Below the pieces are notes generated by a model that saw nothing but the letters and a program-made list of their open reading frames with translations, was not told where the DNA came from and ran no database searches. Position numbers and translations under genes: made by a program. 64,000 nt of DNA, taken from contig NZ_QJJP01000013.1 of the NCBI RefSeq assembly GCF_003201565.1, forward strand, positions 1 through 64,000, in the 5' to 3' direction. Shown here one piece after another: positions 108-12,648 of the stretch; the first letter of the stretch is position 1; every line of letters starts with the position of its first letter. This DNA is from Nitrosomonas sp. Nm84. GTDB lineage: Bacteria > Pseudomonadota > Gammaproteobacteria > Burkholderiales > Nitrosomonadaceae.

Positions 108-1079
108 CTATTTCATGTACTTGTCAAAGAACCCGATTATTTTCTTCGGATATCTTCCAAAATAATTGTATCCATCCTTAAATCGTCGGGTGGTTCCTTC
201 AATCCAGAGTAGCTCTTTTTCTTTGCTTCCTAAAAGATCGAATGTTTTCTGTGCATCTTCCGGATTCTTCGTCCACGCGTCGTCTTTCACTTGAACCATC
301 AAAACCGGCATTTTTACGCCATGAGCCGATAGTTGCGGTGTCATTTCATCCATCAGGAAAGCTCCAGCTTTCAGCAATTCGAAATCCAGTAAGTCCAGAT
401 ACTGGTCAACGCTTTGTAGTTCAGAAAATGCCCGATAAATGGCTCTCATGGAAACTACCATTGGGCTACACAAGCACGAAACATTCTCGAATAAATCCGG
501 ACGCCTGTTGATCGCCTCGTACTGAGAATTTCCACCCATACATTGGCTGTATAAGCCCACCTTCATTTTGCCCAATCTTGGGTGATTATCGACATATTTC
601 TTTACTCCCACGCAGTCGCGCCATTCGATCTGCCCAATGCCACTTACACCATTATTGGAAGCGCCGCTTCGACCGTGATTCCGGATATCGTACGCAAGCA
701 CGTTATAGCCGGCATCGGTTAGGTGTTTCATCTGAATGACAAAATCAATTTCCACGGCATCATAAGTACTCCACGGCTCTCCGAAGTGCCCCTGAAAACC
801 CGCACGACACATAGGAAGCGCATGATTAAAGATAACCAGCTTGTCGCTTTCACCGCCTTTGGCCGGTATATACCAGCCTTCCAAGGGCACACCGTCTTCG
901 GCAGGAAAGAAAATATCTTCCCATCCTGTCATGCCATAATCATCCGGCGTTTTATGAAGAACGCTTCTAAAAGGCTTCACAACATTGACCATGCCTTTGA
1001 TCTTCGCATAATCCGCATCAGAGATAGTTTTTAACTGCTCCAAAGCGTTGGACATTCTTTCTTCTGACATTCTACCCAC
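108..1079 (-). CDS. alpha/beta hydrolase with a cysteine nucleophile motif
   Basis: A 323-residue alpha/beta-hydrolase-fold protein, probably cytoplasmic because no signal peptide is visible. The fold shows in the strand before FNHALP, the AYDIRNHGRSG segment and the nucleophile elbow GLYSQCMGG, where the usual serine is a cysteine as in dienelactone hydrolases. An acid residue is likely in VKDDAW. The histidine expected near the C-terminus is not obvious: the stretch reads EGTTRRFKDG. The start is GTG at 1079, six bases after AAGGAG; an ATG three codons later has poorer spacing. It lies 23 bases downstream of the flavodoxin-like gene and probably shares its transcript. The substrate is unknown. 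Confidence 0.75.
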   Translation of the reverse strand: MGRMSEERMSNALEQLKTISDADYAKIKGMVNVVKPFRSVLHKTPDDYGMTGWEDIFFPAEDGVPLEGWYIPAKGGESDKLVIFNHALPMCRAGFQGHFGEPWSTYDAVEIDFVIQMKHLTDAGYNVLAYDIRNHGRSGASNNGVSGIGQIEWRDCVGVKKYVDNHPRLGKMKVGLYSQCMGGNSQYEAINRRPDLFENVSCLCSPMVVSMRAIYRAFSELQSVDQYLDLLDFELLKAGAFLMDEMTPQLSAHGVKMPVLMVQVKDDAWTKNPEDAQKTFDLLGSKEKELLWIEGTTRRFKDGYNYFGRYPKKIIGFFDKYMK

Positions 1080-1102
1080 GGGTTTCTCCTTATTATTAGG
1101 GG

Positions 1103-1684
1103 TTAGTTTTCTGCAAATAATGTTGTAACTTCATTCAAAAATTCTTCGGTTGATAGTTGGCTTCCCATGCGCCCACGAATGATTGCCTTATGTTCGAAAG
1201 ATTTGGCATCATGCTTCATGACGAGAGATTTGAATTCATCAATGTAGTTCTGCCCGTAATTGCTGTTGTAAGAGTTGAAAAACACAACATCCTTTCCATC
1301 GAAGCGATTATTTTCTGCAAATTTCCAGATAGAAGGGGAAGGCCGATAGAACCATATCGGTGAACCCAGATAGATTTTGTTGTATTTGGCAAAGTCAATA
1401 GTTTGTGGCGTAATTTCTACTTCATGATCTTGAAAAGACATTGCGGCATTTACTAATCCTGTCACGCCGATCTCATACTTGGGTGCCTCTATATTGATGA
1501 GTTCCGCATCGAACATCTCAGCAATCTTGTTCGCCATGATCGCCGTATTTCCTGAGCGTGAAAAATAAATGACGGCGATATCCGATTGCTTTGATGCCTC
1601 TGATTTTGAAAGCAAGCCGCTGTTTTTATTAAACTGACTTCTTTCTATCGAGGTAATAATTACAGGGGCAATGATTACAGCCAA
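1103..1684 (-). CDS. flavodoxin-like protein, probably membrane-anchored, with disrupted start
   Basis: The 193-residue reading frame contains a flavodoxin-type FMN fold: the phosphate loop YFSRSGNTAIMA at about residues 40-51, then IYLGSPIWFYRPSP. It probably moves electrons with FMN, at the membrane or outside it, because a hydrophobic stretch precedes the domain. The frame opens with a TTG at 1684 inside that hydrophobic stretch, which is an unlikely start. A better start is ATG at 1725, preceded by AAGGA, followed by six A and encoding MKK. One extra A would join it in frame to a normal anchor sequence (SVFYTIISILFLAVIIAP). So the gene may be frameshifted, phase-variable or affected by a base-calling error. 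It is followed by the hydrolase gene. Confidence 0.7.
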   Translation of the reverse strand: MAVIIAPVIITSIERSQFNKNSGLLSKSEASKQSDIAVIYFSRSGNTAIMANKIAEMFDAELINIEAPKYEIGVTGLVNAAMSFQDHEVEITPQTIDFAKYNKIYLGSPIWFYRPSPSIWKFAENNRFDGKDVVFFNSYNSNYGQNYIDEFKSLVMKHDAKSFEHKAIIRGRMGSQLSTEEFLNEVTTLFAEN

Positions 1685-2191
1685 AAATAAGATCGAAATA
1701 ATGGTATAAAAAACACTTTTTTCATTTTTCCTTCAAGTTCCTATTCTTAGGTAAGCTGATGTTGTTTATCCAAACTCTCCTATCATGAGACTCTGAAACT
1801 ATCGCCTAAAATAAAAGTCTCTGAGTTGGAAGAAATGTATTTTTTGTGCAACATTAGGTTAAACTTTATTTCTGAAAGAGAACACTGAAAGTGTAGCTGC
1901 GCAAATAAATATTGTGCAGCTGGCATAAACTTCCTAACTACCCTCTAACGTGAAGCTGCTTATCGTACATGATCTAAATCTGTAGATGTTACTCAGGTGA
2001 GATGATGGATGAAGTGGCGCGTAAGCAGCTTCGGGATTTTCTTGCTGGGTTTGCCGGGCTCGCTCATACTAGTGGCAAGCTAGCGAAGCTAGAATGACTG
2101 GGAGCGCGGGCTGCGAGCAGGTGAAAGAGCAAATGGTCAAGAGCCTGAAGTAATTGCGTTCCGTAATTCAATTTTTTCACGAAGGATTATT
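1685..2191. other. 507-base intergenic region with a frameshifted leader and a small open frame
   Basis: The first 40 bases hold the ATG and poly-A tract belonging to the flavodoxin-like gene. The middle is AT-rich with no recognisable gene. From 2002 a 31-codon open frame on the plus strand (starting MMDEVARKQL) follows an AGGTGA and is richer in GC than its surroundings; it could be a gene remnant. A ten-base inverted pair (AAGCTGCTTA at 1953-1962 and TAAGCAGCTT at 2022-2031) flanks its start. AAGGA before 2192 is the ribosome site of the next gene. Confidence 0.4.
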
Positions 2192-2929
2192 ATGACGAAT
2201 CGAAATATCACACGAAGACAATGCCTACTCGGGGCCTGCGGTTTGGGTTTGGGGGCGGCCTTGAATGTCAAGGCTGAATCGCCTTTAATCAATCAATCAA
2301 TCAATACGGAACCTTATCCACGTAATGCCGATGAAGCATTGAAACGACTGAAAGCGGGTAACCAGCGGTTTATGGACGATAAGCCGTTACATGACCGCCA
2401 GGAATCTTCCTGGCGTAGCCTCCTTGTGGAAACCCAGAAACCGTTTGCCACCATTTTGGGATGCAGCGATTCGCGCGTGCCGCCTGAACTCATTTTTGAT
2501 GTTGGATTTGGCGAGCTCTTCACAGTTCGTGTTGCCGGCAATGTTATTGCGGAAGATGTGATCGGCTCATTGCAATATGCCGTGCGCCACCTCCGTACTT
2601 CATTAGTAGTCGTGTTGGGGCATGAAAAGTGTGGCGCCGTCTCTGCTACCATAGAAGAAATGATCAATCGGCCTACTGAACCTGAACACATCGGATCGCT
2701 GATCCAATTGATTAAGCCTGGTCTAACCAGCCTCAGTATGGAAGCGCACAAGGCGGGAGTGGATAAGGAGGCATTGGTCAGTGCTGCGGTGGAAGCAAAT
2801 GTTCGATGGTCTATGCATCAACTCGTCACGCTACCCGCAGCAGTGAAGGCTATGCGAGAAGGACGGGGGGCAACCCTTATGGGGGGCATTTATGAGCTGG
2901 AGACGGGGCGTGTTCGTTTTCTAAGTTAG
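2192..2929 (+). CDS. Tat-exported beta-class carbonic anhydrase
   Basis: Catalyses the interconversion of CO2 and bicarbonate. The beta-class signature is complete: zinc ligands Cys91 (in CSDSR), His144 and Cys147 (in HEKCGA), with the Asp93/Arg95 dyad. The N-terminus has a twin-arginine signal (TRRQCLLG) followed by a hydrophobic stretch and a likely cleavage after VKA near residue 28, so the enzyme should fold in the cytoplasm and work in the periplasm. The length of 245 residues is normal once the signal is allowed for. It stands alone between the flavodoxin-like pair and the guanidine operon. A periplasmic enzyme could help supply inorganic carbon to an autotroph; that role is inference. 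Confidence 0.9.
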   Translation: MTNRNITRRQCLLGACGLGLGAALNVKAESPLINQSINTEPYPRNADEALKRLKAGNQRFMDDKPLHDRQESSWRSLLVETQKPFATILGCSDSRVPPELIFDVGFGELFTVRVAGNVIAEDVIGSLQYAVRHLRTSLVVVLGHEKCGAVSATIEEMINRPTEPEHIGSLIQLIKPGLTSLSMEAHKAGVDKEALVSAAVEANVRWSMHQLVTLPAAVKAMREGRGATLMGGIYELETGRVRFLS

Positions 2930-2941
2930 GCTCGCCTGTTG

Positions 2942-2965
2942 CCCATCCATTTCCTGATGGATAGG
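2942..2965 (+). terminator. possible terminator after carbonic anhydrase
   Basis: The stem CCCATCCAT pairs with ATGGATAGGG around a six-base loop, with one bulged A, just after the stop codon. There is no clear T run afterwards, so termination is uncertain. Confidence 0.35.
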
Positions 2966-3081
2966 GTTGAGATTCTCCGAAGATAGACGGAACTAATTAA
3001 TTTTAAAACTAACAGTGGATAGGCGAACTGGGCGACCGTGTTGAAAATACTGTGGTGGAAAATAACTCCAATCAGTACTGG

Positions 3082-4902
3082 CTATGGATTATCCAACTGC
3101 CGCAAGTAGTTACGCCATCCACCTAAGTGACTAATATCTTTTGCATTGTTGATGGCATAGTACTCGCACAGAAAACCGAGTACCGTTTCATTATTTGCCA
3201 GGGTTATCGAGCCGATTCCTAAGGGTGCTGGAATACTGGCTACAAAACTACCCAGTTCGCGGACTGGTAACTCCCAGACTTCCACTTCGATGGCAACACC
3301 TTGTTCATTTTTGCTGACTCGAATTAACCCAGGACGCAGTGGCGGATGACCGGGTAGTGCATAAAGCTTGTAATCCGACGAGGTTGTGGTGCTGGTCACC
3401 AATCGGCCATGGCGACTGGTTAACTGTTCATTCAACGGCAAACCGGACAAATGTGCGCCACAGACGGCTATACGTATTTGGCCAGATCGGGATGCGATAG
3501 GGAAGAGAGTACTGGGAGATAGTGCAATACCGGTTGCTCCCAGAGGAAGTGAATAAGCTTGCTGCCAACGATGCGCCAGATGCAGCAGCGGTTCATCCTG
3601 GTGGGCTGGCGCTGCCAGCGTGATGCCAAAAGGTAGTCCGTCACGCTGAAAACCGGCAGGAACGGCGACTGCGGCGTAGTCGAGCAGATTCATGAAATTG
3701 GTGTAATAGCCCAGGTTGGTGTTGAGGCGTATGGGATCCTGCTGCATGGCATGAATGGGGTAGATGGTGCCGGCGGTCGGCGCCAGCAAGCAGTCAACTT
3801 GTGTCCAAACCTGATCTGCTTGTTGTTTGATGCTGCGTAATTGATAGATTCCATTGAAAGCATCCGCAGCGGAGCGCTGTTTCGCGGTTGCAATGATCTC
3901 GCGCACCGGTGCGATAATCTGATCGCCGTGCAGCTCGAAGAAAGATTGGATGGCGGCATAACGTTCCGCCACCCAGGGGCCTTCGTAGAGGAGACGCGCG
4001 GCTTCGAGAAACGGTTCGAAATCTATTTCGATAGCTTCTCCGCCCAGTGCCTGCATGCGGGCTACTGCGTCATTGAACAGCCGCTCACTCTCATGATTAT
4101 CGAAAAATTTCAATTGCTGTTGGCGCGGGATGCCAAAACGAAAATGAGGTGCAGCGCCAAAATCAAAGCCATGTCCTTCTCTTTCCCTGGAATAGATATC
4201 TGCTGTGTCGTAAGCGGCGGAAATGGTCAGGAGGCGTGCCGCATCCGCTGCAGTATGCGCGAAGACGGATACCGTATCGAGGGAACGGCAGGCGGTTACC
4301 ATGCCATGCGCGGAAAGCCAGCCTTTGGTGGGTTTATAGCCAATCAGGTTATTAAAAGCAGCGGGAATCCTGCCGGAACCCGCGGTATCGGTGCCGAGAC
4401 TGAAACATACTTGCCCTTTGGCGACAGCGACCGCCGAACCTGAGCTGGAGCCGCCGGAAATATACTCGGGATTGAATGCATTGCGACACGCACCATACGG
4501 CGATCGTGTGCCATTCAATCCGGTGGCGAACTGATCGAGATTGGTTTTGCCGATGGGAATCGCGCCGGCGTCGATCAATTTTTGCACGACTACGGCACTG
4601 CGCGATGGCGTGTAGGCAAAAGCCGGACAGGCCGCGGTGGTCGGTATGTCCGCCAGATCGATATTATCCTTGATGGCGAAAGGCACGCCATACAGCGGCA
4701 ATGACGTCATGTCTTGCGCTTCCACTTTGCGGGCGTAATCTCGCAACGATTCCAGTGGCAATACGGAAATCCAGACGTGATCGGGATCATTTTGAATATC
4801 GGCATGAATGGCTTCGACCATTTGCGTGGGTGATAGCTCACCGCTGGCGTAGCGTCGCAGTAAAGAGGGCATATCGCCCAACGGGAGAAACTTGTGCATC
4901 AT
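3082..4902 (-). CDS. atzF: allophanate hydrolase
   Basis: Hydrolyses allophanate to two ammonia and two CO2, the last step of the guanidine (or urea) carboxylase route. The N-terminal amidase-signature domain has the Ser-cisSer-Lys triad: Lys78, the GGSSSGS loop at 150-156, and Ser176 in TAGSGR. A C-terminal allophanate-hydrolase domain follows from about residue 460. The start is taken at the ATG at 4902, which overlaps the stop of the carboxylase gene as ATGA; a longer frame to 4965 would lie inside the carboxylase. At 606 residues it has the usual length. It is the last gene of the riboswitch operon and is probably translationally coupled to the carboxylase. Confidence 0.93.
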
Positions 4903-7900
4903 GACGGGTTTTCCTGAACGATGAACAGCACTTGCCCGGCGGAGACATATCCACCTTGCTTGCAAAATAGCTGCCGCAACGTGCCGGTAACGGGAGAATC
5001 CACCGGAAATTCCATTTTCATCGACTCGATCATGACCACTGGTTTGCCTGCTTCCACCTGCTCACCTTCTTTGACCAGCAGCTTCCACACGGTGCCGGTT
5101 ACTTGTGAGCTGATGGCTTGCGCACCTTCTGGCAAATCCAGTTCGCTTTGTGGATCCGCTTCATCGAGTGTATCTTCACTGACATACTGCGCTTGACCAT
5201 TGGCTTCCCAACGTTGCCGTTCGGCTTCAAATGCAGCTTGTTGCCGGGTTTTGAATGTGCTGATGCTGGCGGCATGTTGTTGCAGGAAGGCATGGTATTG
5301 CTTCAGACTCAGCGTCGTTTCTTCTGTGCGTAGTTTGAAGTGCCCGCTGATAAAATCCTTACGCAGTTCGAGCAGTTCACTCTCGCTGACCGGATAGAAA
5401 CGAATTTGATCAAAGAAGCGCAATAACCACGGTTGACCATCCTTGAAATCGACGGTCTGGCGATAACGATTCCACATTTGCACGGTACGTCCGACGAACT
5501 GATAGCCACCCGGACCTTCCATGCCGTATACGCATAAATAGGCGCCACCGATACCGACGGCATTTTCGGGTGTCCAAGTGCGCGCCGGGTTGTATTTGGT
5601 GGTGACCAGACGATGGCGCGGATCCAGCGGGGTTGCTACGGGCGCACCCAAGTAGACATCGCCGAGTCCCATCACCAGATAACTGGCTGCAAATACGATA
5701 TGCTGAACCTCCTCAATGTCTTCCAGCCCGTTAATGCGGCGGATAAATTCAATGTTGCTTGGGCACCAGGGCGCGTCGCTGCGTACCGATTGCATGTATT
5801 TTTCGATGGCGAGTCGCGTGGCCGCATCATCCCAGGATAAAGGCAAGTGGATGATGCGAGACGGTACTTCCATGTCATCAATCGATGGCAATTGGCTTTC
5901 GCCCGCGATCAGAAGCGTCAGTAATTTTTCGCGTGCCAGCTGGCTTGAGTCAAAATGAATCTGCAATGAGCGTATGCCAGGAGTCAGATCCAATATGCCG
6001 CAAAGCTCACCGCTATCGATGCGTTGTTGCAGCCACGTCATCAGTGCATGCGCACGAAAGCGCAGATTCAGATCGAGTACCGCCGATCCATATTCGATCA
6101 ACAGGTATTTATCGCCGGATTGGCGATAAGTGACTTGCACTTGTGCTGTGCTCTCTGGAATGTAGTGCAGGATCGGGCTACCTGGTTTTTCGGATCGAAC
6201 AATCGGCGGCAAGCTTGCATCCGCATGAAGATGCTGAATCAGTTGGTTTTGCTGTTGTTCCAACGCCAGCGCTTGTTCCATCGATATCGGATAAAAATGG
6301 ATGCTGTCACCGGGTTTGAGTTGCCCGGTTTTCCACAGTTCCGCTTGAACGATAGTGACCGGGCAAACGAAACCACCCAGGCTGGGGCCGTCAGGGCCCA
6401 GGATAATCGGCATATCGCCGGTAAAATCGACTGCGCCGATGGCATAGGCATTGTCGTGAATATTGGAGGGATGCAAGCCGGCTTCGCCACCATCGCTACG
6501 CGCCCACTGCGGCTTCGGACCGATCAGACGCACGCCGGTACGGCTGGAGTTATGATGCACCTTCCATTCGGCGGCAAAGAATTGTTCAATATCCGCTTCG
6601 GTAAAAAAATCCGGTGCGCCGTGAGGGCCATACAATACGGCAATTTCCCAGCGATTGGTATAAAGCGGAGCCCATTCCTGCGGCAAATGCTGTGGTGTTG
6701 GCTGGGAAGACGGTAGTGGTTGCACATGCAAGACATCGCCGACACGCAGCGTGCGTCCGGCATGGCCGCCAAATTGGCCGAGTGTAAAGGTGGATTTGCT
6801 ACCGAGATAATCGGGTACCTGAAAACCACCGTGCACGGCCAGATACACCCGGCTGCCGGCTTGCTGGATTTTGCCAAACTGTACGAGTGCACCGGCTTTG
6901 ATGGCATAGGATTGCCATAGTGACAGTGGTTCGCCATCCAGCGATACATCGATAGGCGCGCCACAGATAGCGATCATACTGTCGCAATTAAAACGCAGTG
7001 TCGGGCCTGCCAGTGTGATTTCCAGTCCGGCGCTATCTTCGGGATTGTTGACCAACCGGTTAGCAAAGCGGAAAGCCAGGCTATCCATTGGTCCAGAAGG
7101 TGGAACGCCGACATTCCAGTAACCGATCCGTCCGGGATAATCCTGTACCATGGTTTGCACGCCGGCATTCAGAACATCGATACTGTGCGGCTGATAATGG
7201 AAGCCATTGAGGAATTGCGTGGTCGATTGTCCGTTACGGAACACCGTGCTTTGCAGAATCTGTTTGAGATAAGCCAGATTGGTTTCAATCCCATACAATG
7301 CGGTGTCATCCAATGCTGTCAACAGCTTGGCGATGGCGGTTTCCCGCTCTGGTGCGTGCACGATGATCTTGGCCAGCATCGGGTCATAAAACGCGGAAAC
7401 TTCGATGCCGCGCTCAACCCAGGTTTCAACACGCGCAGCGGCAGAGAATTCCGCTGCGGTGAGTGTGCCGCTGGAGGGTTGAAAATCTTTTGCAGGATTC
7501 TCGGCATAAACTCGCACCTGAATGGACGCGCCTCTGGGTTTGATCGTGAAAGAATCTAGCGAAGGCAGATCGCCAGCCGCTTGCCGCACCATCCATTCCA
7601 CCAGGTCAATGCCGGTGGCTTCCTCCGTTATGCCATGCTCTACCTGTAAGCGGGTGTTGACCTCAAGAAAATAGAATTGGCCATTGGCATCATCAAAAAT
7701 ATATTCAACCGTACCGGCGGATTGATAATTGACAGCTTTGCCAAGGCGTACTGCAGTGTCCAGCAATGCTTGACGCAGATGCGGTGCTAGGTTGGGAGCG
7801 GGTGTTTCTTCGATGACTTTCTGGTTACGCCGCTGCATGGAACAATCACGCTCACCCAGTGCGACGACCTGGCCTTTGCCGTCACCGAAAATCTGTACTT

Positions 7901-8525
7901 CGATATGGCGCGCCCGGTCGACAAATTTTTCCAAGAATAAACCGGCATCCTTGAAATTGTTTTGTGCCAACGTTTTGACCGATTCGTAGGCACCGACCAA
8001 TTCATCCTGATTCCAGCACAAACGCATGCCGATGCCACCGCCGCCGGCGGTGCTTTTCAGCATCACGGGATAGCCGATATGTTTGGCCTGATGGCAAGCG
8101 GCCTCAAGGTTTTCCAGCAAACCGGTTCCCGGCAGCAAAGGCACCTGATTCTCCAGTGCCAAGGCGCGTGCTGTGTGTTTTAAACCAAACGCGCGCATTT
8201 GTTGTGGTGTAGGGCCGATAAAACAGATGCCATGCGCAGCGCATTGTTCAGCAAAATCGGCTTTCTCGCTGAGGAAACCATAGCCGGGATGAATGGCTTG
8301 CGCACCGCTTTGCTGTGCTACCTCCAGGATTTTATCGGTGCGCAAATAGCTTTCCGCAGCGAGTCCACTGCCAATGCAGTAGGCCTCATCGGCTTCGATG
8401 ACATGCCGTGATAATGCATCGGCTTCGGTATAAACGGCGACACTTTTGACATGCATGCGGCGCAGGGTGCGGATAATCCGGCAAGCAATGGCACCGCGAT
8501 TGGCAATCAAGACTTTATCGAACAT
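4899..8525 (-). CDS. biotin-dependent urea/guanidine carboxylase
   Basis: ATP-dependent carboxylase of 1208 residues. Residues 1-450 form a biotin carboxylase domain (ATP-grasp loop [26 protein letters not shown]). Then come the KipA- and KipI-like carboxyltransferase domains (about 465-1010) and a C-terminal biotinyl domain with the modified lysine in ESMKMEF (Lys1170). Proteins of this form were long called urea carboxylase. Members in operons with two DUF1989 proteins and a guanidine-I riboswitch have been shown to carboxylate guanidine, so guanidine is the likely substrate here. This is inferred from context, not from the active site. It lies between the second DUF1989 gene (44-base gap) and atzF (ATGA overlap). 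Confidence 0.93.
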
Positions 8526-8569
8526 AGCGTTATCCTTTTTCTTGATGAATCATCAACTGGATTTATCGG

Positions 8570-9235
8570 TTACTGGGAATCCCAGATCAATAACCGGATT
8601 GGTGTCGGATTATAGGCATTGCACGGATTGTTGAGTTGCGGACAATTCGAGATCAATACCAGTACATCCATTTCAGCCTGCATTTCGACATATTTGCCTG
8701 GTGCCGAAACGCCATCGACAAATTCCAATCCGCCTGCTTCGGTGACAGGGACATTCATGAAAAAATTGATGTTGCTGGGTATGTCGCGCTTACTCATGTT
8801 CAGTTGTTCACAAGCTGTTTCATGCGCCAGCGCATGCAGAAAATTATCCCGGCAACTGTGCATCGGGTATTTTTCCAACGCATAGCGTACCGTGTTGCTT
8901 TCCGCCGCACAGGCACCACCCAATGTATCATGCCGCCCACAGGTATCGGCTACGATTGTGAGCATGGTATTGCCAAAATTGGAGCAAAGTTTGCTACCAG
9001 TGGTCAGATACAGCTTATTCTGAGTGCGAATGGTATCGGTGGCGCTATAGCGTTCCAAGGCGTGACCGGCATTGAAAAACAATGTGTCGACGGCTTGATT
9101 GCCTTCCAGGTCAACGATACGGAAAATTTGTCCTTGCTTGACGATGCCGACCCAGGGCTCGCCGGCTGCACAAATTTCATCGACTACGGCAAGATCCGGA
9201 TTGAGTTTGCTGGCTATCATAGTTTGCGTGCTCAT
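8570..9235 (-). CDS. DUF1989 protein, carboxyguanidine deiminase subunit (UAAP2 type)
   Basis: A 221-residue protein of the DUF1989 family, historically annotated as urea amidolyase associated protein 2. Paired DUF1989 proteins have been shown to form a carboxyguanidine deiminase that releases ammonia and gives allophanate. Conserved family features visible are [10 protein letters not shown] near residue 50, [12 protein letters not shown] near 110 and [10 protein letters not shown] near 155. It overlaps the upstream DUF1989 gene by four bases (ATGA), which fits equal production of two subunits, and has GGAGGT five bases before its start. The two DUF1989 proteins here share motifs but are clearly different in sequence. 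Confidence 0.9.
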
Positions 9236-9960
9236 TGCGCACCTCCACAGGGGTGATAGAACCGGTGAGTATTGTGTAACCCTCTAACATTTTCGGCGAT
9301 CTGCTGGCATGTTGAAATTGCTGCATCGGGTGTCACAAATGCCGATAGATCAACGGCGCCGGGCTGGTAAGTTGGTTTTGTATCCAGCGGGTGCGGGGCA
9401 GCCGAGAGTATGACCAAGGTATCCATTTCAAAACTCAGATCAATATAATCACCTGCCTGGCTGTTACCGGCATGAAATGTTAGCTCGCCATCAGCATCGG
9501 CAGTGACTTTGCTGAAGAAATTAATGTTGGGCACAACGTCGCGCATGCCTAATCCCCACTTGCCCAATTCGATCAGCATGCCATCCAGGCCGCTGCGGAA
9601 CATGTGATTGCGATGTTCTTGATAGCGTGCAATGCCATATCTTTGTTGTATTGATTTCGCGTCACTCAATCCGCAAACGGTATCGTTCCAGCCAGCAGTA
9701 TCCGCCGTAATGCAGCAGAAAATCCGCCCCATATCCGAATGACAGGCATGCCCTTGGGTCAGGCGGAAGGTGTGCTGCGATTTTAGTGTATCTGCCATAT
9801 TATAGCGTTCGAGCTTTTCTTCCTGATTAAAGAACAATACTGCCGCATTTGCACCACCACTTACGTCCGTCAGACGTAACGTGGCACCGCGACGCATGAT
9901 GCCGGACCAGTGGCATCCGCCGGGTATGGATTGTTTCCAGATGATATTTTGTTGATTCAT
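9232..9960 (-). CDS. DUF1989 protein, carboxyguanidine deiminase subunit (UAAP1 type)
   Basis: A 242-residue DUF1989 family protein, historically called urea amidolyase associated protein 1 and now understood as one subunit of carboxyguanidine deiminase. It shares with its partner the [17 protein letters not shown] segment, a cysteine-containing [12 protein letters not shown] region and the [12 protein letters not shown] motif. AAGGAG lies eight bases before the ATG. It sits 24 bases after the permease gene and overlaps the second DUF1989 gene. Cytoplasmic, with no signal peptide. Assignment of activity rests on family and operon context. Confidence 0.9.
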
Positions 9961-9984
9961 GATGGACTCCTTGTCAAAGCAATT

Positions 9985-11421
9985 TTACTTAGTGCTAACC
10001 CATTTCTTGCAAAGGATATACAGTGTGGTGATCGTCAGGATACTGCTGAGTACCAGTGGCGTTGCCCATAATTGCCACCACGGCGCATCGGCTGAAATGG
10101 CATATGGGCGGGGCCAGGCGATATTGATGACCTCAAACAACGACCAAATGAATGCCAGGATATTGATGATCAATCCCCATGCGCCAAGTTTTAATTCGCC
10201 GAGTTGAGGATTCCACCGACCTGTGAGTCGGGCAAACAATGCGAATCCGGTTGTGAACGTGAACATGGCATATAAACCGCCGGTACCGAAAGCGATAATG
10301 GTGGCCACAGCATCATCATTGAGCCCGAAAATCAATCCGCAGCCTGCCAGCAGAACGGTAAAGAGGACCGCGTTACGCGGTGTTTTGCTGGTCGTGACTC
10401 GGCTCAACACGGCTGGCATATTGCCTTCCCGCGCCATGGAATACACGATGCGAGAAGTATATTTAGTCATGGACGCGCCGCAGGCCAGAAAAGCAATCAT
10501 CACAATGGCCAGAAAGGGTTTTTCAAACCAATCACCAATGCTGTTGGCAATCAATGGCGTGACCGGATCAGCGGTATGGCTGGAATTTCTTAATGTGTCA
10601 TGATCAAATGCCAGGATCAGTGCGGCTGAGTTAAATAAAACTACCGTACCAACAACCAGTAGCGACATGAGAATTGCACGCGGCACCATGCGTTTCGGTT
10701 GATGGGTTTCTTCCGCTGTGGTGGAACAGGCATCAAAACCGATAAAAGCCCAACCAGCGATAGCCAGTGCCGCTAGGAAAGCGGCCATTTCACTGGGCGC
10801 AGTTCCGGTCCCCATGTGCTGGAATAACTCCATGAAAGAATGCTGACGGAAGAAAAGAAATAACAGCAGTGCCACGCCGAATGATCCTACCACCTCGGCG
10901 TAAACACCGAGTTTGATCACCAGATTGAAAATGCCGACAGGTGCCAGATTGAGTAGCGTGCAGAGAAACAGAAATAGGGCACCCCAGAGTACCATCATTG
11001 TGCCGCCATCACCCTGCGATCCGCAAAAGGTGGCGAGCCAGAAACCGCCGGTGTAGGCGGTTGTCGTGACCATGGCAATGGTGGAGCAAATATAAATCAC
11101 GCCTGCATATTGCCCGGCAATGGCGCCGCCCAGTTGCCGTGCCCACTTATAGGCGCCGCCTGCAATCGGGAATTGCGAAGATAATTCTGCATACACAGTA
11201 GCTACCAGTAGCTGCATGAGCAAGCACACCGCCAATGCAGCAAACCAACCGCCACCGGTAACTGTGGTTTGCACGCCGATGATGGCATAGAGTCCGGCGA
11301 CCGGCGAGACAACCGCAAAACCCAGTGTAAAGCTGTGCCATACACTCATGCTGCGATTGAGTACATCACCGACTACATGGGCATCTTGCGAGGAAGCGGT
11401 TTGTTTTGTTGAACCTGACAT
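9985..11421 (-). CDS. APC-family permease, probable guanidine (or urea-like) importer
   Basis: A 478-residue amino acid-polyamine-organocation permease with about twelve membrane segments and the family's N-terminal SVWHSFTLGFAVVSPVAGLY and AGGAYKWARQL motifs. It is the first gene after the guanidine-I riboswitch and belongs to the subgroup found beside urea/guanidine carboxylases. Import of guanidine or guanidinium is the natural inference, although exporters also occur under this riboswitch class. Coupling with a complete degradation pathway argues for uptake. GGAG precedes the ATG. The gene is followed at 24 bases by the first DUF1989 gene. Confidence 0.85.
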   Translation of the reverse strand: MSGSTKQTASSQDAHVVGDVLNRSMSVWHSFTLGFAVVSPVAGLYAIIGVQTTVTGGGWFAALAVCLLMQLLVATVYAELSSQFPIAGGAYKWARQLGGAIAGQYAGVIYICSTIAMVTTTAYTGGFWLATFCGSQGDGGTMMVLWGALFLFLCTLLNLAPVGIFNLVIKLGVYAEVVGSFGVALLLFLFFRQHSFMELFQHMGTGTAPSEMAAFLAALAIAGWAFIGFDACSTTAEETHQPKRMVPRAILMSLLVVGTVVLFNSAALILAFDHDTLRNSSHTADPVTPLIANSIGDWFEKPFLAIVMIAFLACGASMTKYTSRIVYSMAREGNMPAVLSRVTTSKTPRNAVLFTVLLAGCGLIFGLNDDAVATIIAFGTGGLYAMFTFTTGFALFARLTGRWNPQLGELKLGAWGLIINILAFIWSLFEVINIAWPRPYAISADAPWWQLWATPLVLSSILTITTLYILCKKWVSTK

Positions 11422-11436
11422 AACAAGTCTCCATAC

Positions 11437-11490
11437 AAAAAGGGTTTACCGAGATTGTAATGCACTCTAAGAACATTACGCTTAATCTCC
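11437..11490 (-). terminator. attenuator hairpin at the 3' edge of the guanidine riboswitch
   Basis: In the transcript, GAGATT (11489-11484) can pair with AATCTC (11456-11451) and GTAATG (11479-11474) with CATTAC (11462-11457), with a four-base bulge. GG at the 5' base can also meet CC just before a run of five U (11441-11437). The 5' arm reuses the closing GGGAGA of the riboswitch, so the aptamer and this hairpin should exclude each other. That suits ligand-dependent antitermination before the permease gene. Confidence 0.6.
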
Positions 11491-11582
11491 CGGGCTTTTT
11501 TCCCTCCGTGGAGTCTCGTTAGCACGAGACCGGAAGCTCTTGGACCTGACGTCGTTTCTTGTACGACCGGAACCCTAGTTTC
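11485..11582 (-). ncRNA. guanidine-I (ykkC) riboswitch
   Basis: Read on the minus strand, the leader of the permease operon has the hallmark conserved blocks of the guanidine-I aptamer in the right order: CTAGGGTTCCGG at the 5' side, CAGGTCCAAGAGC, then CACGGAGGGA and AAAAGCCCGGGAGA at the 3' side. A variable hairpin (TCTCGT..ACGAGA) lies between them. It sits 64 bases upstream of the permease ATG. The class binds guanidinium and turns on guanidine transport or breakdown genes; every downstream gene here fits that. Confidence 0.92.
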
Positions 11583-11937
11583 CATTGAATTACTGCTTTT
11601 TGAGTTGTTATGCCGTCAATCGTTCAATGGCATTTTAGCAAGCGAGTAATGGAGGGTATTTTAAATGCGTGATTTGGAAAAAGCAATGATTTTGGAGATT
11701 GCATTATTGCTGGTTTGATAAAGCTTGATATGATGGAATCTGAGTTGACGTATCGCTCAGACCCCTTTGTTAGATTTATTTATCAGAAGCCAATCGTTCA
11801 AACCGTTCAGCCAACATTGCAGTTACGCCCTCGTTGCTGTCAAAGTCAGCATCTAATTTCCCGGATTTTTCATGTATGTTATAGTAAAAACGGCATCGTA
11901 GTACGCCACTCCTATTAACGCTGTGTGGAGGATCAAG
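11583..11937. other. intergenic region upstream of the guanidine operon and the TetR gene
   Basis: Divergent promoters for the riboswitch operon and the regulator must lie here. A possible -10 TATAGT at 11880-11885 with a TG-type extension could serve the regulator, but its -35 (TTTCCC) is poor. An 18-codon open frame (11665-11718, starting MRDLEKAMIL) follows a GGAGGG ten bases upstream; it may be chance. No other gene is seen. Confidence 0.35.
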
Positions 11938-12648
11938 ATGAAAAAAAGTAAGCTTGAGATACGCGAGGCGATTGTGGATACGGCTGTTACCATCGCGGAA
12001 CGTTCAAATTGGGAAGCGGTACGCTTGTTTGATGTGGCCGCTGAATTGAACATTTCCCTGGATGACATCCGTCTTTATTTCCGCGAAAAGGAAGATCTGG
12101 TTGATGCCTGGTTTGACCAGGCAGACAGCCAAATGCTCAAGGCGGCGGAAACCGTGGAATTCCTGTCATTGTCTCCGCGGGAACGTTTACATTGTCTCAT
12201 CATGACCTGGCTGGATGCGTTGGTTGCGCACCGTAAGGTCACGCGACAGATGATCGGCGCCAAACTGGAACCCGGCCATCTGCATATCCAAATCCCCGCC
12301 ATTATGCGCATCAGCCGCACGGTGCAGTGGATGCGCGAAGCTGCGCAGCGTGATGCTACCTTTGTACGCCGCGCATTGGAAGAAACCGCGCTGACCACGA
12401 TTTATCTGACCACGTTTGTGTACTGGATGCGCGATGAATCCGAGAATTCACAGCGCACGCGCAACTTTCTGGAAAAAAAACTGCAAGTAGCCGAGACGCT
12501 GGATCGTTTAATCTACAGAACCCCACGCACTGAAACCGCCGATGATCCTTCCGAGGAAACCAGCGCTACACATGAGATCCCGGCTACTGTTGAGTCTTCT
12601 TCATTGGCTGAATCCATGACGCCAAAAATGCATGCCAAGTCCGGTTAA
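11938..12648 (+). CDS. TetR-type transcriptional regulator
   Basis: A 236-residue DNA-binding regulator. The N-terminal helix-turn-helix is typical of TetR proteins: a first helix in IREAIVDTAVTIAE, then FDVAAELNISLDDIRLYFREKEDL near residues 30-55. The C-terminal ligand domain is not recognisable. The ATG at 11938 is chosen because GGAGG sits seven bases before it; a GTG five codons upstream overlaps that site. It diverges from the guanidine operon, but regulation of that operon is not shown. The stop codon TAA lies inside the left end of a repeat element (12645-12790), so the C-terminus may have been cut or re-formed by the insertion. Confidence 0.8.
   Translation: MKKSKLEIREAIVDTAVTIAERSNWEAVRLFDVAAELNISLDDIRLYFREKEDLVDAWFDQADSQMLKAAETVEFLSLSPRERLHCLIMTWLDALVAHRKVTRQMIGAKLEPGHLHIQIPAIMRISRTVQWMREAAQRDATFVRRALEETALTTIYLTTFVYWMRDESENSQRTRNFLEKKLQVAETLDRLIYRTPRTETADDPSEETSATHEIPATVESSSLAESMTPKMHAKSG

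Follow-up and report, generated by a model that had tools for sequence, protein, structure and literature searches.

Guanidine degradation genes are reported for 135 of 145 betaproteobacterial ammonia oxidizers, where they belong exclusively to the carboxylase pathway; in most ammonia oxidizers that carry guanidine genes an APC permease is encoded in the same region, and in Nitrosospira multiformis the genes are under guanidine-I control (Fig. 1c legend; PMC11410670, cited here, like the other papers, for its accessible portions). The operon described here lies on the minus strand of a 64,000-nucleotide stretch of Nitrosomonas sp. Nm84 (the window; assembly GCF_003201565.1, contig NZ_QJJP01000013.1, positions 1 to 64,000). 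It has in common with those operons a guanidine-I riboswitch, an APC permease, a predicted guanidine carboxylase with signature aspartates, carboxyguanidine deiminase, allophanate hydrolase, and a separate urease; against the accessible portions of PMC11410670 no difference in content was found, only one of species. The operon type is already known from that paper, which includes both a survey and incubations of ammonia oxidizers.

The guanidine operon of Vreelandella boliviensis shares the guanidine-I switch, the carboxylase, two deiminase subunits, and allophanate hydrolase; its importer is of the ABC type, a guanidine-II switch lies inside it, and methylguanidine genes are included (PMC12508155), whereas the window operon has an APC permease and a single switch, without further genes. 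In the comammox ammonia oxidizer Nitrospira inopinata a guanidine-I switch likewise precedes an APC permease, but the enzymes are an ATP-free Ni guanidinase and urease instead of an ATP-dependent carboxylase (PMC11410670). The urea amidolyase/urea carboxylase of Kluyveromyces lactis (5i8i, 3va7) has the same carboxylase domain order and Asp1584; it differs in having Asn1330 where the window enzyme has Asp700, and the hydrolase, fused in 5i8i, is separate in the window. Guanidine is both a pollutant and a natural metabolite, and the window, as a clean and complete example of a pathway connecting it to nitrification, has its value as a reference form; the interest lies in its relatives, in which the frequent absence of allophanate hydrolase and a headless second carboxylase are testable gaps in guanidine handling.

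Riboswitch, gene order, and carboxylase residues

Judged from its sequence, the operon very probably (at roughly 93%) directs guanidine-inducible breakdown of guanidine through the guanidine carboxylase pathway in a Nitrosomonas. The aptamer matches the whole RF00442 model with 91.9 bits against a gathering score of 63 (cmscan, E 2.8e-15); it is the sole Rfam match at gathering threshold in the window and the sole guanidine-I match in the 3.47 Mb assembly. Family and Rfam searches confirmed the aptamer and the five named genes (Table 1), in the tandem, single-strand arrangement given by a preliminary description made from the sequence alone; the limit at 11582 in that description cuts the aptamer, which reaches 11589, short. 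The UAAP1 and UAAP2 genes share 4 bases, and their products, both above the cut-off of their models, would be the two subunits of carboxyguanidine deiminase. Allophanate hydrolase consists of an amidase and a C-terminal domain; its open reading frame could extend to a TTG at 4965, and residues 60-623 of the longer frame align with 4gyr, but ATG 4902, which overlaps the carboxylase stop by 4 bases, is the more likely start. By these family assignments the gene set is complete from guanidine import through to ammonia and CO2, as had been proposed.

The best 39 of 80 related loci (L002-L040, several of them cut by contig ends) were examined for the same arrangement. The order permease, UAAP1, UAAP2, carboxylase is kept in 29 of the 39 and is thus not due to chance; allophanate hydrolase directly follows the carboxylase in 25, in L003 and L011 it is in pieces, and a strict aptamer pattern matches in 24. 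In a survey of 61 genomes, comprising 37 of the genus (the window genome included) and 24 of the order, the aptamer is present in 34 (31/37 within the genus and 3/24 outside).

The carboxylase has biotin carboxylase, carboxyltransferase, and biotin carrier domains, its residues 2-1204 matching positions 1-1201 of TIGR02712, and its biotin site is Lys1170 in an ESMKM motif. Guanidine carboxylases are distinguished by Asp at the position of K. lactis residue 1330, which is Asn in urea carboxylase, and require Asp at 1584 (PMC11410670). In the window enzyme Asp700 aligns with Asn1330 of 5i8i, and Asp956, in the motif GLGDVYLG, aligns with Asp1584 (by our own count, the alignment print-out ending there). 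Asp700 is conserved in 60 of 61 further distinct open frames taken from related loci (a set that includes the window genome's own gene), the exception being Asn in a Pseudomonas locus (L039); Asp956 and the biotin lysine are conserved in all 61. The NCBIfam model is named urea carboxylase, a name also used for the enzyme in three genome papers (among them PMC3764937); because both signature aspartates are present, this label probably names the wrong substrate, which supports the preliminary proposal that the enzyme acts on guanidine and not on urea.

The mechanism would begin with binding of guanidine to the leader RNA, which most likely blocks a terminator hairpin and lets transcription continue. 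The permease would import guanidine, which the biotin-dependent carboxylase, from what is known of its family, would convert with ATP and bicarbonate to carboxyguanidine; the DUF1989 pair would then yield allophanate and one ammonia, and allophanate hydrolase two more ammonia and CO2. The resulting ammonia could be assimilated or oxidized by the ammonia monooxygenase of the cell. The host is an ammonia-oxidizing Nitrosomonas, as had been supposed: the assembly contains amoA, flanked by frames taken by eye for amoC and amoB, and the closest named relative of the carboxylase among the 80 loci returned is from a Nitrosomonas metagenome-assembled genome (95% identity). The carboxylase of the cultured Nitrosomonas sp. 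Nm166 is 90% identical.

Table 1. Coordinates of the operon in the window and of related features in other loci
Feature	Location	Strand	Model match
Guanidine-I (ykkC-yxkD) riboswitch aptamer	window, 11485-11589	-	RF00442, full model 1-107
Putative expression platform (hairpin using the aptamer 3' strand, then TTTTT, GGAG ribosome site, ATG 11421)	window, 11437-11495	-	
APC-superfamily permease, probable guanidine importer	window, 9985-11421	-	PF13520, 127.4 bits
DUF1989 protein UAAP1, putative carboxyguanidine deiminase subunit	window, 9232-9960	-	TIGR03425, 329.3 bits (cut-off 205.95); PF09347
DUF1989 protein UAAP2, putative carboxyguanidine deiminase subunit	window, 8570-9235	-	TIGR03424, 342.1 bits (cut-off 284.7); PF09347
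Predicted guanidine carboxylase, 1208 residues	window, 4899-8525	-	TIGR02712, 1962.5 bits (cut-off 1303.85)
Allophanate hydrolase	window, 3082-4902	-	TIGR02713, 807.5 bits (cut-off 511.05); PF01425 and PF21986
Headless carboxylase	L145, 5164-7518	-	
Headless carboxylase	L146, 5329-7716	-	
Headless carboxylase	L148, 6731-9085	+	
Free-standing allophanate hydrolase C-terminal domain	L166, 7141-7623 (one of L165-L176)	+	

Leader control, physiological role, and neighboring genes

The last strand of the aptamer is able to pair with downstream AATCTCGG, enclosing a second stem (GTAATG/CATTAC); this hairpin is followed by the T-run, the ribosome site, and the permease start codon. The fold of 11422-11520 has a z of -2.83, and the pairing, judged by eye, is largely kept in 13 aligned leaders (the window and 12 loci). 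We infer an ON switch that works by antitermination. A simple terminator scan did not report the leader hairpin. Several points weigh against a guanidine-inducible operon of this form. The T-run is short or weak in several of the 13 leaders, and control at translation is therefore possible. The permease falls far below the cut-off of TIGR03428, the urea carboxylase system permease (166.6 against 740.45 bits), and is assigned to the APC permeases (PF13520) only, so that its substrate rests on context. Finally, five ammonia-oxidizing bacteria with this gene set, one of them without urease, have been incubated with guanidine: none of the five used it as sole substrate, and three degraded some guanidine, only with ammonium present (PMC11410670).

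The preliminary description had suggested guanidine as a stand-alone energy source. This idea is already in print (PMC11410670), but the suggestion goes wider than the published incubations allow and is not upheld by them; growth on guanidine alone is a less likely role than detoxification and the supply of extra nitrogen and energy alongside ammonium. A role mainly in detoxification, in which the same enzymes clear toxic or internally formed guanidine and the gain of ammonia is a side effect, is less likely than not, although it would accord with the failure of the tested ammonia oxidizers to live on guanidine alone, with the reported inhibition of N. europaea by 1 mM guanidine (PMC11410670), and with the many relatives that have the carboxylase but not the last enzyme. 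It differs from guanidine use only in role; against it, the operon is headed by a permease taken as an importer and encodes every step to three ammonia, and the neighbors scanned (108-12648) include no small multidrug resistance exporter. A linked guanidine exporter was considered and rejected: the genome has one small multidrug resistance gene, located on a different contig, and its best matches are Qac/EmrE models, none of which reaches its cut-off.

The weakest alternative, very improbable and rejected on Asp700, where K. lactis urea carboxylase has Asn, is a urea amidolyase in which carboxylase and hydrolase break down urea at ATP cost and the riboswitch senses guanidine incidentally: it fits the names in the family models and the three genome papers, but a guanidine aptamer sits in front of the operon, urea breakdown as generally known has no step for the DUF1989 pair, the same assembly already encodes a urease alpha subunit, and Nitrosomonas Is79, which has the carboxylase and a putative allophanate hydrolase without urease, did not produce nitrite from urea (an unpublished result cited in PMC3764937).

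The single arginase-family (PF00491) gene of the genome scores above cut-off with two agmatinase models, and its closest solved chain is an agmatinase (342 bits, against only 138 bits for 7esr, which we take to be a guanidinase). A guanidinase was therefore rejected on these scores, without a column-by-column check of the published Thr/His/Trp signature, this only candidate appearing agmatinase-like, and the preliminary view that an ATP-spending route is used instead agrees with there being no clear guanidinase in the genome. A beta-carbonic anhydrase gene beside the operon (2192-2929) was considered as a supplier of bicarbonate and rejected; neither it nor a TetR/COQ9-like gene (11923-12648) had a tblastn match (E up to 1e-15) in the flanks, some of them short, of the 39 related loci.

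Relatives without allophanate hydrolase

The enzymes were surveyed in 61 genomes of the genus (G000-G036, G061-G084), some of which are the same records as the named loci; absence from an incomplete assembly is weak evidence. The carboxylase model scores above cut-off in 57 (some carboxylases are pieces at contig ends, and that of G073 passes only with its neighbors in frame), allophanate hydrolase in 20 (the gene of G005 being cut off by a contig end), and urease alpha in 37. Allophanate hydrolase passes its cut-off in 18 of the 57 genomes with the carboxylase and fails to do so in 39; among the latter, 15 have only a free-standing C-terminal domain (AH_C), one (G011) has a gene whose middle is missing, and 23 have neither. 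Fragmentary assemblies do not fully account for the absence, because genomes in one or two contigs are affected (G006, G029, G035, G068, and G070), and other genes come after the carboxylase in several named loci. In L037, from N. oligotropha Nm45, no allophanate hydrolase follows the carboxylase. Replacement of the lost hydrolase by urease found no support (Fisher p 0.39 over the 57 genomes): 13 have both enzymes, 5 the hydrolase only, 23 urease only, and 16 neither above cut-off, G002 among these last having a urease fragment.

A carboxylase tree was built for 30 genomes, of which 28 belong to the genus. On it, the presence of allophanate hydrolase requires no fewer than 7 to 8 changes (5 to 6 forced by well supported branches) and clusters only weakly, 47 and 14 of 500 shuffles giving values as low. 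The pattern is most simply read as repeated loss, with gains, or a difference between the carboxylase and species trees, as possible alternatives. The ratio of nonsynonymous to synonymous substitution (dN/dS) was obtained for 11 pairs of full-length carboxylase genes and is 0.083-0.123 in five pairs without the hydrolase, 0.055-0.082 in three pairs with it, and 0.071-0.091 in three mixed pairs, one of which includes the broken copy of G011. Constraint on the carboxylase is strong in all pairs and perhaps slightly weaker without the hydrolase.

AH_C occurs in 15 of the 61 genomes, a count that leaves out two weak partial matches (G074, 27.2 bits; G024, 24.7 bits), and in none of the 20 with the hydrolase, an exclusion that is not independent evidence because the species are related. 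The domain is an open frame in 11 of 12 places examined, the match in L167 having internal stop codons. No guanidine gene was recognized beside it at the 12 places, judged by eye from frame starts, and the neighborhoods differ between groups of relatives; for these reasons no claim is made that AH_C replaces the enzyme. In G011, contig C44 (L177), and in L011, probably the same record, the hydrolase match is limited to model positions 2-205 and 387-562; this gene, which follows an intact carboxylase, seems to be decaying. No discussion of the missing hydrolase was found in open-licence full texts; the supplementary tables of PMC11410670 may contain the point.

A second carboxylase without the biotin carboxylase domain

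Five genomes (G001, G012, G017, G021, and G036) have two aptamers and, besides a full-length carboxylase, a shorter second one (about 780-810 residues) with no biotin carboxylase domain (the headless carboxylase), which is located behind permease and DUF1989 genes. The short form is also present in G062 and G080, the search for aptamers having covered the other five, and all seven genomes are without allophanate hydrolase and urease above cut-off. A domain scan of one protein, that of L145, gave carboxyltransferase and biotin carrier domains only. Both aspartates and the biotin lysine are kept in all five two-aptamer genomes, and dN/dS of 0.064-0.121 in 10 of 10 pairs indicates that the gene is under constraint. 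In a protein search the biotin carboxylase domain was missing in 48 of the best 120 of 7999 candidates. Every one of these 48 proteins carries both aspartates and the biotin lysine, but a protein of 705 residues, and perhaps another of 763, could be a fragment; source names among the matches listed include Nitrosomonas, Nitrosospira, and Nitrosovibrio. No discussion of the headless carboxylase was found in open-licence full texts.

The headless enzyme may borrow the biotin carboxylase of a partner for carboxylation of its own biotin. A tentative reading joins this with the missing hydrolase, and both parts together seem somewhat less probable than not. In most Nitrosomonas the carboxylase and switch would be under purifying selection and the hydrolase repeatedly lost, allophanate being split by an unrecognized enzyme or decaying to urea, which is hydrolyzed or lost; in some Nitrosomonas and Nitrosospira the second, headless carboxylase would work on guanidine by way of the borrowed biotin carboxylase.

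A nucleoside-deaminase-like gene follows the headless carboxylase of L145; in L146 and L148 it is not at that place. For certain published genes, guanidine is named by the authors as an alternative role; these genes resemble riboswitch-controlled guanidine genes, and their switch may be on in infected cells. In L148, one genome only, a urea transporter gene (TIGR03441, 336.6 bits; 9105-10043, minus strand) is convergent to the headless carboxylase gene and would fit urea as the product in that species.

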